Positions 7,373 through 43,229 of a DNA stretch of 64,000 nt are shown here, one piece after another (positions within the stretch are counted from its first letter, which is position 1; each line of letters opens with the position of its first letter). Position numbers and translations under genes: made by a program. Origin of the DNA: Paracoccaceae bacterium (GTDB taxonomy: Bacteria; Pseudomonadota; Alphaproteobacteria; Rhodobacterales; Rhodobacteraceae); assembly GCA_018222585.1 (NCBI GenBank), contig JAAFAB010000005.1:186001-250000 (forward strand), read 5' to 3'. Under the pieces are notes generated by a model. It was not told the origin of the DNA. It saw only the letters and a list, made by a program, of their open reading frames with translations, and did not search any database.

Positions 7373-8377
7373 TCACTCGACGCGCAGGCCTGCGGCGTCG
7401 AACTTGTGGATCTTGTCCGCCTCGGGGGTCAGCCAGATCGTGTCACCGTGGCGCAGGGCCATCTCGCCGCTGGCGCGGACGGTGATGGTTTCGGCCAGGC
7501 CGGTGTCATGGACATGCAGGAAGGTATCGCTGCCCAGGTGCTCGCCCACGCCGACGGTGCCCTTCCACATGCCGCTCTCGGTCGAGGGCTGCAGGTGCTC
7601 AGGCCGGACACCGATCTCGTGCGCGCCATGTTTGGCCGCCTCTTCGCCGGTGATGAAATTCATCTTCGGCGAGCCGATGAACCCGGCGACGAAGCGGTTG
7701 CGCGGCGCGCGGTAGAGCTCCAGCGGGCTGCCGACCTGTTCGATCCGGCCGGCCTGCAGCACGACGATCTTGTCGGCCATGGTCATCGCCTCGACCTGGT
7801 CGTGGGTGACATAGACCATGGTGGTCTTCAGCTTGGTGTGCAGCTCCGAGATCTCGAGGCGCATGTTCACCCGCAGCGCCGCGTCGAGGTTCGACAGCGG
7901 TTCGTCGAAGAGGAAGGCCGCCGGTTCGCGCACGATGGCCCGACCGATGGCGACCCGCTGACGCTGACCGCCCGAGAGCTGGCCCGGCTTGCGGTCGATG
8001 TAGTCGCTGAGGTTCAGCACCTGGGCGGCATAATCGACCCGCTTGTCCTGCTCTTCCTTGCTCATGCCTGCCATCTTCAGCGGGAAGGCGATGTTCTTGC
8101 GCACCGACATGTGCGGATAAAGCGCGTAGCTCTGGAACACCATGGCCAGCTTGCGCTTGGCGGGGGGCAGATGCGTGGCGTCCTCGCGGTCGATGCGGAT
8201 CTGGCCGCTGCTGACATCTTCCAGCCCCGCGATCAGCCGAAGCAGCGTGGACTTGCCGCAGCCCGAGGGGCCGACGAAGACGACGAACTCGCCCTCGTCG
8301 ATGGTCAGGTCCAGCGGCGGGATCACCTCGATGTCCCCGAACGACTTGGTCACCTTGTCCAGCGTGATACGTCCCAT
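7373..8377 (-). CDS. smoK: Sorbitol/mannitol ABC transporter, ATP-binding protein
   Basis: A 334-residue MalK/UgpC-type ATPase that powers the SmoEFG polyol importer at the inner membrane. Walker [10 protein letters not shown], the Q-loop region, signature LSGGQRQR and Walker [12 protein letters not shown] are all present. They are followed by the D-loop, the switch histidine ([10 protein letters not shown]) and a C-terminal TOBE/OB regulatory region. The length is slightly short of MalK (371) but normal for SmoK. It lies 39 bp after smoG in the same operon and 50 bp before mtlK. Assignment to polyols rests on the operon (smoEFG, mtlK, SorC-type regulator). Confidence 0.92.
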
Positions 8378-8416
8378 GTTCTTGTCCTTTATCTTCAGAC
8401 CCTTGCAGGGCGTTCT

Positions 8417-9247
8417 TTACTTGACGGCGCCGAAGGTCAGGCCGCGAACGAGCTGTTTCTGGCTGAACCAGCCCATGATGAGGATCGGCGCGATGGCCAT
8501 GGTGGAGGCCGCCGAGAGCTTGGCGTAGAACAGCCCTTCCGGCGACGAGTAGGAGGCGATGAAGGCCGTCAGCGGCGCCGCCTTGGCTGCCGTCAGGTTC
8601 AGCGTCCAGAAGGCTTCGTTCCAGGCCAGGATGATGTTCAGCAGCACGGTCGAGGCCATGCCCGGCACCGCCATCGGCAGCAGGACGTGCACCACTTCGC
8701 CCCGCAGGGTCGCCCCGTCCATCCGTGCGGCTTCCAGGATCTCGCCCGGGATTTCGCGGAAGTAGGTGTAGAGCATCCAGATGATGATCGGCAGGTTGAT
8801 CAGCGTCAGCACGATGACCAGGCCCAGCTTGGTGTCCAGCAGCCCCAGGGTGCGGAACATCAGGTAGATCGGCACCAGCACCCCGACCGGCGGCAGCATC
8901 TTGGTGGACAGCATCCACATCAGCACGTCCTTGGTGCGCTTGCCCGGCACGAAGGCCATGGCCCAGGCGGCAGGCACCGCGATCACCAGGCCCAGCAGGG
9001 TCGAGCCGACCGAGATCACCACCGAGTTCCAGAAGTGGCGGAAGTAGTTCGACCGTTCCTGCACCTCGATGTAGTTCTCGAAAGTCCAGTTGAAGCCGAG
9101 GAAGATCGGCGGATCGGCGATCGCCTGGGCCTCGGTCTTGAAGCTGGTGAGGATGGTCCAGAGGATCGGGAAGAAGATCAGCAGACCGATCACCCAGGCC
9201 ACGACAGTGTTCACCGCCATGCGCTGCGTCGTCACTTTACGCGCCAT
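8417..9247 (-). CDS. smoG: Sorbitol/mannitol ABC transporter, permease
   Basis: A 276-residue carbohydrate ABC permease (MalG type), an inner-membrane half of the polyol importer. It has six predicted membrane segments and the cytoplasmic EAA loop EAARMDGATLRGEVVHVLLP followed by P-G, which docks to the ATPase. It starts after the smoF gene and a 123-bp spacer holding an intergenic repeat, and precedes smoK. It forms a heterodimer with SmoF. Family identity is clear; the substrate is from operon context. Confidence 0.92.
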   Translation of the reverse strand: MARKVTTQRMAVNTVVAWVIGLLIFFPILWTILTSFKTEAQAIADPPIFLGFNWTFENYIEVQERSNYFRHFWNSVVISVGSTLLGLVIAVPAAWAMAFVPGKRTKDVLMWMLSTKMLPPVGVLVPIYLMFRTLGLLDTKLGLVIVLTLINLPIIIWMLYTYFREIPGEILEAARMDGATLRGEVVHVLLPMAVPGMASTVLLNIILAWNEAFWTLNLTAAKAAPLTAFIASYSSPEGLFYAKLSAASTMAIAPILIMGWFSQKQLVRGLTFGAVK

Positions 9248-40097: not shown

Positions 40098-41096
40098 CTA
40101 TTCCGCCGGCGCCGCGCGGTCGCTGGCTTCCTCTTCCGCGGCGAGGGTCTTGTAGCCTCCGGCCCGCACGATCCCGCCGCGCGCCAGCTGGTCATAGATC
40201 AGGTACAACCCCGATCCGATGACGATGGCCGAGCCAAGGAAGACGTTGGCCTGTGTCGTCTCGCCGAAGATCAGCGCGCCCATGATCACCATCCAGACGA
40301 ACTGCAGGTTCATCAGCGGCGTGACCACGTAGGCCGCCAGCAGGCGCAGCGCCACCACCAGCACCCAGCGGGCAAAGAACAGGAACCCCGCGTAGGCAGC
40401 GATCCAGAAGAGGTCGTGCAGCCCCATCGGGCGGAAGACGAAGGGCAGCGCCACCGCCATGACCAGCGCCAGCGTGGCATTCGGCCAGAAGACCTGGGCC
40501 AGGGCATTGCGTTCATGTTGGCCGATGCGCCGGGCCATGACCATCGACAGCGTGCCCGAGGCCGTGGCCCCGAAGGCGATCAGATGGCCGAGCGAGACCG
40601 CATGGACCCCCTCGGGGAACAGGCAGACAATGCCGATGAACCCGGCGCCAAGGGCAAACCAGACCGCCAGCGACACCTTTTCCTTCAGGAGCGGCCCCGA
40701 CATCAGCCCGGCGAAGATCGGCATCAGCCCGATGAAGACGAAGACCTCGGCGAACTCCAGCAGCTTGAAGGCGTAGAAATAGCAGACCGACGCGATGACC
40801 GTGGCGCAGGAGCGGACCCCCATCTCGACCGGGCGCGAGGTACGGATGGCGTCCATCACCCCCTCGCTGCCCGACTTCAGCCATTCCGCCCCCAGGCAGA
40901 AGCTGGCCACCAGCGCACCGGACAGGACGTAGAGCTGCGGCGCCGCGAAGCTGCCGGAGATGAACTTGGTGATCGCATCCGCCGAGGAGATCAGGGCGGT
41001 GTAGAGAAGCACCAGGGCGACCCCCGCGAGGGTCGCCCGGTTTGCCAGTCTTTGCGGGGCGCCAGCGCCCCCGGTCTTTCGGACTCTGGTCGTCAC
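40098..41096 (-). CDS. DMT-superfamily (EamA) transporter
   Basis: A 332-residue integral membrane protein with about ten membrane segments arranged as two EamA repeats (first from about residue 22: AGVALVLLYTALISSADAITKFISG; second from about 185). EamA proteins export amino acids, nucleosides or other small metabolites. The start is a GTG in a 4-bp GTGA overlap with the upstream 372-residue gene, with GAGGG before it, so both are translationally coupled. This makes it the third gene of the repeat-peptide locus and a candidate exporter for its product. It could also be a general metabolite exporter captured by the operon. Confidence 0.85.
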   Translation of the reverse strand: MTTRVRKTGGAGAPQRLANRATLAGVALVLLYTALISSADAITKFISGSFAAPQLYVLSGALVASFCLGAEWLKSGSEGVMDAIRTSRPVEMGVRSCATVIASVCYFYAFKLLEFAEVFVFIGLMPIFAGLMSGPLLKEKVSLAVWFALGAGFIGIVCLFPEGVHAVSLGHLIAFGATASGTLSMVMARRIGQHERNALAQVFWPNATLALVMAVALPFVFRPMGLHDLFWIAAYAGFLFFARWVLVVALRLLAAYVVTPLMNLQFVWMVIMGALIFGETTQANVFLGSAIVIGSGLYLIYDQLARGGIVRAGGYKTLAAEEEASDRAAPAE

Positions 41097-42211
41097 GCGC
41101 TGACCCTCTTCCGCGGCACCGCCGCCAGGCCGGCCCGGGCGAAGCCGGCGAAGAAGGCGTCGAAATCGGCACAGGCTTCGGCGGCGCGCGCCAGGTGGCC
41201 GATGGCCCAGGGCTCTGCCAGGGCCTCGTGGATCGGCTCCTGCATCCGCGACCAGTCGTCCGAGCGCGCCTCGTCGAGATCCAGCAGGCATTGCGACATG
41301 CGGCGCAGGGGGCCGACCGGGCGCGGCGCGGCTTGGATGGAGATGCGACCCTCGGGCACCGCCTGCAGGAAACTCTCGTTCCCCGCCGTGGCCATGGCCC
41401 AGTTGCTCACGAGGAACTCGTGATAGTCGTCATGCGCCATCGCGCCCTCCCAAGCTTCGACGGTGGCCCCGTTCATTTCGCGGGCGAGCCAGGCCTCCCA
41501 GGCCTCGGGGGGCGTCGATCCGGCGTAGCGCAGGGCCACGCAGATCTCGGCCAGCAGATCCGCATTCAGGTCAAGGTACGCCAGGGTTCCCGCGAAGTTA
41601 AGGCTCTGCTGCGCCGATTGCGTCAATTGTGTGGGTTTTCTTCCATACTCGCTGAGGTAGAACAGGATATGGGTCAGTTCATAGGCGGCCTTCTTGTTGG
41701 GAACCATGAAGGTCCGGGGCCGCGAGATGAAGGTCATCAGCCTTTCCGTAAGGTCATCCGATTCTGCCGCGCTGCCGCAGGGATCCACTCCGCGCCGCAG
41801 CATCAAGCGACGGGCCTCGGCCCTCTGAAGGTCCGACAACTCGGCCTCGGCGAGGCCCTGGGCGTGGGCCCAGTGCACCAGCCCCTCGGCCTTGTCGCCG
41901 GTCATGCCGAGCGCCTCGAGATCCAGCGCGATGGACAGGAAGAAACGATAATACTGCGGGAAGAACCCCAGGCGCTTTTCCAGCGTTTCGTAGACGCTCA
42001 TGTAGGGGGCAAGCGCGTCTGCGGGCAGATGGCCATCGTTGCAGGTCTGTCCCGTGGTCTCGAGGACGTTCAGGATCTCGGCATTTTCCTTCAGCCAGAA
42101 CACGTCGTCCCGGCTCCGGCGCGTGCCGGCGAAACGGTCGAGCAGGGCCGCGCGCCGCGCGGCCCGGCCCTGGCTCCGGGCGGGGAAGGTCAGATGTACA
42201 ACGTTGGACAT
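41093..42211 (-). CDS. Unassigned 372-residue protein downstream of repeat peptide
   Basis: I do not recognise a characterised family. The sequence looks all-alpha and soluble, with no signal peptide or membrane helix. Notable segments are CNDGHLPADALAPYMSVYETLEKRLGFFPQYYRFFLSIALDLEALG (57-101), YELTHILFYLSEYGRKP (177-193) and HDDYHEFLVSNWAMATAGNESFL (260-282). These contain clustered His, Asp and Glu residues (His181, His260, Asp261, Asp262, His264, Glu265) that could bind a metal. The start at 42211 has AAAGGA upstream, directly below a strong hairpin. It stands between the repeat-peptide gene (114-bp gap) and the EamA transporter (4-bp overlap). That fits a processing enzyme or partner of the peptide; this role is inference. 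Confidence 0.75.
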   Translation of the reverse strand: MSNVVHLTFPARSQGRAARRAALLDRFAGTRRSRDDVFWLKENAEILNVLETTGQTCNDGHLPADALAPYMSVYETLEKRLGFFPQYYRFFLSIALDLEALGMTGDKAEGLVHWAHAQGLAEAELSDLQRAEARRLMLRRGVDPCGSAAESDDLTERLMTFISRPRTFMVPNKKAAYELTHILFYLSEYGRKPTQLTQSAQQSLNFAGTLAYLDLNADLLAEICVALRYAGSTPPEAWEAWLAREMNGATVEAWEGAMAHDDYHEFLVSNWAMATAGNESFLQAVPEGRISIQAAPRPVGPLRRMSQCLLDLDEARSDDWSRMQEPIHEALAEPWAIGHLARAAEACADFDAFFAGFARAGLAAVPRKRVSA

Positions 42212-42225
42212 TGAGAGGATCCTTT

Positions 42226-42265
42226 CCGTCTGATCATCGGCCCCGGCGGGGGCGAGATCAGACGG
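42226..42265 (-). other. Intercistronic hairpin between repeat-peptide gene and downstream genes
   Basis: CCGTCTGATC (42226-42235) and GATCAGACGG (42256-42265) are perfect 10-bp arms; a second GC stem (CGCCCCCGCCGGGGCCG region) lies inside. It stands 60 bp after the peptide stop codon and 14 bp before the next start. There is no T tract, so partial termination or mRNA protection is more likely than full termination. Confidence 0.65.
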
Positions 42266-42325
42266 ACGGCGTCCTCACCTCACTCCCCGGCCCGGTCCGG
42301 GCGCGGTCACTCGGTGGCGAGCAGC

Positions 42326-42796
42326 TCAGCTGCCGGAGGTGAACATCTCGACCGCGTCGCCCGAGGCGGCAACCGAGGTCACCGGCGCCGAGCCCGAGGT
42401 GAAGGCTTCGACCGCATCACCCGAGCGGGCATCGCTGGCAACCGGCGCCGAGCCGGAGGTGAACATCTCGACCGCATCGCCCGAGGCGACCAGCGAGGTC
42501 ACCGGAGCCGAGCCCGAGGTGAAGGCTTCGACCGCGTCACCCGAGCGGGCATCGCTGGCAACCGGCGCCGAGCCGGAGGTGAACATCTCGACCGCGTCGC
42601 CCGCCATGGCAGTGGCGGCGGACATCGGTGCGGAACCGGAGGTGAACAGGCCCAGGGCCTCACCAGCCATCAGGTCACCTTGCGCGGCGGGGGCAGAGCC
42701 CGAGGTGAACATCTCGACCGCATCACCGTCCAGCAGGGTTTCGGCAGCATATGCAGTTGTGGCGGCACCGTGAACGGTCTTGCGAATGGCAGTCAT
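42326..42796 (-). CDS. Repeat polypeptide with seven GDAVExFTSGS units (possible multi-core precursor)
   Basis: A 156-residue protein: a 23-residue leader-like N-terminus (MTAIRKTVHGAATTAYAAET...) followed by seven units of G-[DE]-A-[VL]-[EG]-x-[FL]-T-S-G-S. The F-T-S-G-S cores are at 30-34, 51-55, 72-76, 92-96, 112-116, 132-136 and 152-156. Spacers read AP-V-[AT]-S-x4. The protein ends exactly on the seventh S-G-S. There is no cysteine, Sec signal or membrane helix. The ATG at 42796 has GGAG 6 nt before it. The opposite strand is also open, but only because of the repeats. The layout is that of a RiPP precursor or of a repetitive structural peptide; the neighbours suggest processing and export. 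Function unknown. Confidence 0.8.
   Translation of the reverse strand: MTAIRKTVHGAATTAYAAETLLDGDAVEMFTSGSAPAAQGDLMAGEALGLFTSGSAPMSAATAMAGDAVEMFTSGSAPVASDARSGDAVEAFTSGSAPVTSLVASGDAVEMFTSGSAPVASDARSGDAVEAFTSGSAPVTSVAASGDAVEMFTSGS
42329..42730. repeat. Tandem 60-bp / 120-bp coding repeats
   Basis: The DNA for the seven peptide units repeats with a 60-63 bp period. In the stop-proximal part, two 120-bp blocks (about 42353-42472 and 42473-42592) are nearly identical. Units with Met and with Ala before F-T-S-G-S alternate within them, pointing to recent duplication of a two-unit block. Repeats stay in frame throughout. Confidence 0.85.
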
Positions 42797-43229
42797 CTGG
42801 ATCTCCAAGTCGTTGAAAAATAAGGACGAGTGAGATCAAGGTTGCACGGGTCGGAAGACCTGAAAACAGATTTTTCAATTTAAACGTGTCAAGATAAAGT
42901 TATTCACAATAACTTCCTTGAACAACATATTGTTTCCGAATAAACAACAAACTATCGCCAATTTTTTAACACTCATTAATTTTCGGTAAATTCGATCAAG
43001 AACATTGAGGGAACTTCGACAAGATTCGGCGGAGCCCCGGATTCGCGACGAATCGAGGAGACTGGACTCGGACCCCACAGCCCGGCTGGACAGCGTCCTC
43101 GGGACGGTCGAAAAGCCTTGCAGTCCGGGCAACGCAGGCGCGACATCGGGACCAGATCGATATCCTGCCTGCGCACGCCTCACAGAGTTGCGTGTCCGCG
43201 TCACGATGAAAAGAGAAAAGGCTTTCCCC
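42797..43229. other. AT-rich non-coding region upstream of the repeat-peptide gene and xthA
   Basis: 433 bp without a supported gene. The segment 42860-43000 is markedly AT-rich compared with the whole window. It holds the promoter of the repeat-peptide locus (minus) and, in the right part, that of xthA (plus). It contains TTAA-N6-TTAA (42966-42979), which is one base short of the CtrA spacing. Confidence 0.5.
42887..42915 (-). promoter_or_regulatory. Candidate promoter -35 with adjacent palindrome for the repeat-peptide locus
   Basis: On the minus strand a perfect TTGACA (42892-42887) directly follows the inverted repeat AAGTTATT-CAC-AATAACTT (42897-42915, 8-bp arms). The palindrome contains TTATTCACA, which fits the DnaA consensus TTATNCACA. 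The -10 is not clear (best CTGTTT at 17 bp). The palindrome is a plausible activator or repressor site. Confidence 0.4.

Follow-up and report, generated by a model that had tools for sequence, protein, structure and literature searches.

What product is made by a locus in which seven copies of one pentapeptide are encoded beside an enzyme-like protein and a transporter? Such a locus is found in the window, a stretch of 64,000 nucleotides from a Paracoccaceae bacterium (assembly GCA_018222585.1, contig JAAFAB010000005.1, positions 186,001 to 250,000). The repeat gene encodes the polypeptide P0001 with seven FTSGS cores, the second gene encodes P0002, a member of the Pfam family DUF6902, and the third encodes an EamA transporter. 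The locus probably represents a new multi-core family resembling ribosomally synthesized and post-translationally modified peptides (RiPPs), in which the DUF6902 protein would modify, and probably epimerise, a genome-specific pentapeptide, with export by EamA as an optional step. It is likely that the precursor and DUF6902 as its modifying enzyme form a working pair. Release of the cores as a small peptide is probable. Epimerisation as the reaction of DUF6902, suggested by its relation to the family DUF6895, stands slightly below an even chance.

Relatives of the locus were collected in two samples with 159 loci in total. The order sample comprises 79 loci from Rhodobacterales; the genome-contigs sample comprises 80 loci, kept from 405 relatives found in a scan of genome contigs, and includes closer relatives. 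The named genera among the kept relatives are Rhodobacterales, and a few records are given as Alphaproteobacteria only. Seven of the 80 enzymes in the second sample duplicate enzymes in the first, and precursor counts were made on distinct precursors.

Of the 292 order genomes, 81 contain DUF6902 at E <= 0.001 (80 above the family cut-off, the window genome counted). In a wider draw from the class it exceeds the cut-off in 3 of 289 genomes, namely the window genome and two others of its family. The repeat profile A3, built from 44 of 91 two-repeat segments, all from DUF6902 loci, matches 70 of the 292 order genomes. Each of the 70 also carries DUF6902, and the profile matches none of the 211 genomes that lack it (Fisher p 3e-56). 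The first-pass annotation had named the opposite pattern, a repeat gene occurring mostly without the 372-residue gene, as evidence against a joint system; none of the 70 repeat-bearing genomes lacks DUF6902. One of them (G150, the genome of locus L111) carries DUF6902 in pieces and a weak repeat match (E 2.9e-4).

At least two copies of one core are found upstream of DUF6902 in 153 of the 159 loci. Among the other six, a precursor is visible by eye in L095, L103 and L110; L093 carries two cores that differ, no core is present in L087, and L111 is a broken copy. The precursor is located on the same strand as DUF6902, 20-343 bp ahead of the enzyme match. A ribosomal precursor together with a co-occurring candidate for a dedicated enzyme corresponds to the gene content of a RiPP pathway, in which the N-terminal part of the precursor would serve as the leader.

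The partner protein had at first been described as belonging to no assignable family. P0002 matches DUF6902 (PF21843) with 484.3 bits (cut-off 27, E 2.4e-145) over profile positions 1-351 of 351, and DUF6895 (PF21836) with 86.3 bits (cut-off 23.8, E 3.2e-24); NCBIfam gave no match for P0002. By these profiles DUF6902 is clearly a remote clade of DUF6895-type enzymes, though it has its own Pfam family. A DUF6895 protein is reported to be the epimerase in the pathway of a lasso peptide (ACS Catal. 2026, 16, 1757, as cited in the review PMC13352647). Besides the start Met, the residues Y177, H181, F184, G190, D218, E222 and H264 are invariant in nine DUF6902 proteins and four DUF6895 proteins, the latter from other groups. 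The set Y177, H181, D218, E222 and H264 is complete in 155 of 156 DUF6902 proteins (the window included; the short proteins of L109, L111, L154 and L166 left out). The exception, in L087 (7998-9071), has R-R-S-E-H at the five sites in an open frame with no precursor upstream and is probably a decaying copy. The joint loss of the residue set and the precursor, a single case, fits an active site that is needed only with the precursor.

The AlphaFold2 model of P0002 is confident (mean pLDDT 93.6, pTM 0.91) and almost all helix, in agreement with the all-alpha protein expected earlier. Set A2, used for fold prediction, comprised the window and 76 of the 80 relatives (without L125, L154, L166 and L172); set A1 comprised the window and 40 of the 79. 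A Foldseek search of the model against viral models gave no match at E <= 0.001, and a PDB sequence search with P0002 gave six matches with E 0.24-0.84, taken as chance. Complement C4b and transcobalamin, which contain alpha/alpha toroids, are among the weak Foldseek rows from the PDB and could serve as a hint only.

The usual core is F-x-[S/T/C]-x-x. The pattern [FY]x[STC]xx gave 967 cores in 142 distinct precursors, which represent 149 of the 159 loci. Position 1 is Phe in 936 of the 967 and Tyr in the rest, positions 1 and 3 being limited by the pattern. T and S prevail at position 2, where A, V, C, I, M and P also occur; position 4 is mostly G, S, W, A or C, and position 5 mostly S, L, M, A or C. 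Distant members have other cores, such as MPTSN, MTSVA, AQSFSAP and VSSTC. Each core is preceded by a stretch starting with a conserved Gly, often G-D/E-x-x-x-M/L/A. Cores follow one another at 20 or 21 residues in 627 of 927 spacings (a count that includes false Val cores and linker pieces such as VTSDA), and 117 of the 142 precursors end exactly on a core. Different genomes encode different peptides: about 34 core forms and at least 50 changes were counted on the enzyme tree (FastTree, 148 enzymes, 139 core-labelled, support values unused), both numbers being approximate because the register of at least one label (FYTTG, L094) is wrong. The absence of Cys, pointed out in the first-pass annotation, holds for the window cores and fails for the family, where FTCGL, FTTSC, FTSCA and FCSGL occur.

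Within one precursor the copies are held alike. All cores agree at positions 2, 4 and 5 in 118 of the 142 precursors, and the joint identity at these positions is 0.92 within precursors versus 0.11 between them. At positions 4 and 5, which are free in the pattern, the codons differ in 54% of within-precursor comparisons, and 9% of these differences change the residue; in the linkers the codons differ in 79% of comparisons, with 81% of the differences changing the residue. A count balanced for degeneracy (only S/T/G/L/A codons, adjacent copies, core positions 2, 4 and 5 versus linkers) gave 1118 synonymous and 51 nonsynonymous differences in cores (4% nonsynonymous) and 452 and 1362, respectively, in linkers (75%). 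For 121 precursors there were three or more differences in cores as well as in linkers, and the contrast has the same direction in all 121. The conserved zone is sharply bordered: it covers the five core residues, a G six residues before and, more weakly, the two residues after (often A-P). Since core differences are rich in synonymous changes and the linkers have diverged, the pentapeptide is held alike by selection and not by recent copying alone.

Alternatively, the likeness of the copies could have arisen simply from recent tandem duplication and gene conversion, with no selection on the pentapeptide. Part of the window array is indeed a recent duplication (Tandem Repeats Finder: 42332-42603, 2.3 copies of a 120-bp unit, 95% alike, with the first repeats lying outside), and such stretches are present in other arrays too. 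Yet the codons of like cores differ as widely as stated above while the protein sequence of the linkers has diverged, and each of the 121 precursors compared already contradicts this explanation, which is extremely improbable; as the whole cause of core identity, recent duplication was rejected on the codon pattern.

The whole set of copies can differ between near relatives. The enzymes of L120 and L128, both from metagenome assemblies, are 95.5% identical, and their precursors carry 7/7 FTSGS and 6/6 FSSGS, respectively, with differing core codons. The two precursors have a near-identical leader and similar linkers, are largely colinear, and have the same first and last repeat frames. Among enzyme pairs 75-85% identical, the main core differs in 37 of 64 (some pairs are counted twice through the seven enzymes common to both samples). 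The likeness of copies suggests an exact reader of the product, such as a receptor.

According to the favoured RiPP-like reading, one pentapeptide (here FTSGS) is encoded several times over in the precursor, and DUF6902 would bind the repeats and modify each core as its substrate. A core residue would then be epimerised by an active site of His, Asp and Glu residues, possibly metal-bound; epimerisation leaves the mass of a peptide unchanged. The cores could be freed, probably by general proteases (the two-gene cassette includes none), and EamA, where present, may export the product. Among the chemistries guessed earlier, an epimerised product now appears to be the best supported one, through the profile relation to DUF6895.

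The same pair could perform another reaction, with the S/T/C residue at position 3 acting as a nucleophile or undergoing dehydration, cyclisation or ester formation, or with Phe oxidised by a non-haem metal centre. The prevalence of cores that combine Phe at position 1 with S/T/C at position 3, within the limits of the pattern, is in line with this, and the two invariant His and two invariant acidic residues would suit a metal. Nevertheless, the one activity cited for the related DUF6895 is epimerisation (PMC13352647), and Phe is not universal, as the distant MPTSN, MTSVA and AQSFSAP-like cores demonstrate; on the whole another chemistry is rather unlikely. It is less likely still that the repeat protein is no RiPP precursor at all and remains uncleaved as a multivalent structural or regulatory chain, the FxSxx motifs of which bind DUF6902 or another partner. 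The cassette of two genes without a protease and the similar frame around the motif in every repeat, with the prevailing period of 20 or 21 residues, would agree with such a scaffold. Against it, the whole pentamer is kept alike between copies, even at positions that are free between genomes, and in 117 of 142 chains the last residues are those of a core.

A third possibility, that the locus is a multi-copy branch of the actinobacterial FxSxx-COOH system with a radical S-adenosylmethionine (SAM) maturase, has hardly any probability. The common feature is the C-terminal F-x-S-x-x, and the partners there are radical-SAM and metallopeptidase proteins, as described in PMC7159879. In one of 30 DUF6902 genomes (G230, contig C3, 285323-286384) an FxsB-like gene reaches 349.9 bits against a cut-off of 370, on a contig other than that of the cassette. 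Against this, FxsB exceeds the cut-off in none of 30 DUF6902 genomes, and weaker matches are present in 20 of these 30 versus 11 of 14 controls. Where erpA closely follows DUF6902, such a gene would not fit. P0001 has no NCBIfam match at E <= 1, and NCBIfam presumably contains an FxSxx-COOH precursor model. Membership in the FxSxx-COOH/radical-SAM system was rejected, given no match to a precursor model and no FxsB above its cut-off in the 30 genomes.

Several results weigh against the RiPP-like reading. Its modification, cleavage and product side is deduced from the genes. The DUF6895 match is limited to residues 18-241 of P0002, with 17-19% identity to four aligned members, and a Foldseek search of the P0002 model gave no PDB match at E <= 0.001. 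Unlike cores are present in 24 of the 142 precursors; L055, for example, mixes FSSGS with FSTSC. The exporter is not constant, and the two-gene cassette has no protease. Finally, the repeat profile A3, itself built from DUF6902 loci, misses 11 of the 81 DUF6902 genomes, so divergent precursors in DUF6902-negative genomes could escape it as well. Eight of the 11 have a divergent precursor with repeated cores (L084, L097, L102, L104, L105, L108, L109 and L110); the others are L093 with its two unlike cores, L087 without a precursor, and L112, a DUF6902 match below the cut-off, with none shown.

The general plan of the proposed system is known. Cyanobactins also have multi-core precursors, and the yeast alpha-factor precursor, which is unrelated, has a similar plan of tandem identical peptides in one chain. 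Microviridins (PMC5934393) have several cores per precursor, as here; the DUF6902 system differs in cores mostly identical within a genome and in another enzyme family. The lasso epimerase of the DUF6895 type shares an enzyme superfamily with P0002 by profile and, in the four aligned DUF6895 proteins, the residues Y177, H181, D218, E222 and H264, the characterised enzyme not being among those compared; a small open reading frame (ORF) accompanies the DUF6895 gene at five fetched loci, as the precursor accompanies DUF6902. The differences are the separate Pfam family and the partner, which is a multi-core repeat protein and not a lasso precursor. A lasso cyclase with a leader peptidase was not found at the DUF6902 locus, a result that covers the locus and not the rest of the genomes; lasso genes would not fit into the two-gene cassettes, where erpA closely follows DUF6902 (within 700 bp, with no EamA between, in 35 of 79 loci). 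MslH has a metallophosphatase fold and differs in this from the almost all-helical model of DUF6902. As the epimerase of the lasso peptide MS-271 (PMC10406935), MslH would work in a similar manner, by acid/base epimerisation at the alpha carbon of a ribosomal peptide; the likeness concerns the reaction and does not extend to demonstrated kinship.

No description of DUF6902 or of this precursor was found in the open-licence PubMed Central literature, among the matches listed. New here, relative to the literature searched, are the precursor type and the enzyme clade. If the RiPP-like reading is true, it would define a compact two-gene family that is common in the mainly marine order Rhodobacterales, and its enzyme clade would have a peptide epimerase as the sole relative cited. 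In most genomes all copies encode one pentapeptide, and close relatives may differ in every copy; such a pattern is uncommon among peptide natural products and points towards a partner able to recognise the precise sequence. The reaction of DUF6902 and a possible roseobacter peptide signal become directly testable.

Such a signal could constitute a pherotype system, in which a genome-specific pentapeptide, modified by DUF6902 and probably carrying a D-residue, is released from the multicopy precursor and read as a self signal. This extension of the RiPP-like reading is possible but doubtful. All copies would have to match the receptor, so the whole array would switch together, as in L120 versus L128. 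The peptide is perhaps under cell-cycle control through DnaA boxes. The sequence TGTGGATAA corresponds to the DnaA box TTATCCACA in reverse complement. Exact copies, all in one fixed orientation, are present in 58 of the 141 distinct regions upstream of precursors, and 54 of the 58 sites lie 93-123 nt ahead of the start codon used. The background is 0.9% of random 160-nt stretches from the same loci, and none of 17 cassette-free gaps between xthA and erpA holds a DnaA-box-like site. The 64 kb of the window contain two TTATNCACA sites, where 0.11 would be expected; one of them is TTATTCACA at 42900-42908. DnaA control of the precursor is advanced as a hypothesis from these site counts. Another motif, TTAA-N7-TTAA, which resembles a CtrA site, occurs in 12 of the 141 upstream regions (e.g., L078, L080, L084, L089) versus 0.2% of random stretches from the same loci and 0.6% of shuffles.

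The first-pass annotation had proposed the order precursor, processing protein and exporter. Its first part agrees with the precursor found beside a candidate modifying enzyme; the exporter proved optional. EamA follows DUF6902 in 42 of the 79 loci of the order sample versus 71 of the 80 in the genome-contigs sample, and erpA stands within 700 bp of DUF6902 with no EamA between them in 35 and 7 loci, respectively. EamA presence changes at least 12 times on the enzyme tree. EamA seems to be a part of the cassette, but a dispensable one.

Within the window (Table 1), the seven cores of the 156-residue polypeptide, its end on the last core, and the 372-residue partner followed by EamA were all placed as originally described. 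The core spacings are 21, 21, 20, 20, 20 and 20 residues, and the EamA gene overlaps the P0002 gene by 4 bp. The plus strand opposite the precursor is open too (42314-42823, 169 codons), probably as a side effect of the GC-rich repeat; the minus frame is supported by the synonymous pattern of codon differences.

Table 1. Positions of the cassette features in the window and of small ORFs at the DUF6895 loci compared.
Feature	Position	Strand	Remarks
Multi-core precursor gene (P0001)	42326..42796	-	156 aa, about 29 residues ahead of core 1; seven FTSGS cores
Core 1, FTSGS	42695..42709	-	residues 30-34
Core 2, FTSGS	42632..42646	-	residues 51-55
Core 3, FTSGS	42569..42583	-	residues 72-76
Core 4, FTSGS	42509..42523	-	residues 92-96
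Core 5, FTSGS	42449..42463	-	residues 112-116
Core 6, FTSGS	42389..42403	-	residues 132-136
Core 7, FTSGS	42329..42343	-	residues 152-156, C-terminal, stop codon directly after
DUF6902 protein (P0002)	41093..42211	-	372 aa, DUF6895 relative by profile, candidate peptide-modifying enzyme
EamA/DMT (drug/metabolite) transporter	40098..41096	-	GTG start at 41096; optional third cassette gene; PF00892 E 2.9e-11
DnaA-box-like TTATTCACA	42900..42908	+	upstream of precursor, putative regulatory role
Small ORF upstream of DUF6895, L208	9206-9403		
Small ORF upstream of DUF6895, L209	10437-10868		
Small ORF upstream of DUF6895, L210	9069-9485		
Small ORF upstream of DUF6895, L212	10762-10998		
Small ORF upstream of DUF6895, L211	9306-9602		

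The cassette is flanked by xthA and erpA. In the order sample, 78 of 79 loci have a divergent xthA no more than 2 kb away, and 75 of 79 have erpA at a distance of up to 3 kb. The stretch beside the dgt gene, fetched from 20 genomes that lack DUF6902, gave no DUF6902 or EamA match; xthA was found in 17 of these stretches, with the gap between xthA and erpA down to 30 bp. A phage or plasmid origin was considered and rejected: P0002 had no tblastn match in 72,556 plasmid records, and viral contigs gave 21 pattern stretches with no confirmed relative. The precursor gave no tblastn match in phage or plasmid records, where the low-complexity filter may hide repeats. A role as a defence system was likewise rejected, with no PADLOC match at E <= 0.01. 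In L154 (Roseovarius litorisediminis, 8001-8420) the DUF6902 frame is cut short, and in L111 it is in pieces. The nearest DUF6902 relatives among the 80 kept, 77-81% alike, belong to Oceanicola sp. S124, Pseudooceanicola marinus and P. antarcticus, a group in which the window probably originates.

A small ORF is located just upstream of the DUF6895 gene in all five loci fetched (frames listed, with no chance comparison). Four of them (L208, L209, L210, L212) are outside the order of the window, with profile matches of 42.7-144 bits. Their ORFs have 65-143 aa, lie on the same strand 45-152 bp upstream, and gave no Pfam match above the cut-off. The fifth, L211, is a shorter DUF6895 frame (38.9 bits) from a DUF6902-negative genome of the window's family, and its upstream ORF contains GWWAVVSDHCVV. 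The single neighbours at L209 and L210, a lipocalin and a match below the cut-off, are uninformative on a RiPP context; those of L208 are a major facilitator superfamily (MFS) transporter, an O-methyltransferase and a papain-like peptidase. These ORFs may be precursors of a second peptide type. Aromatic segments are observed in the DUF6895-upstream ORFs, such as GPWFVL and GPWYIYK in the four loci outside the order, and also NYVYK, KFVFK and GWWAVV.

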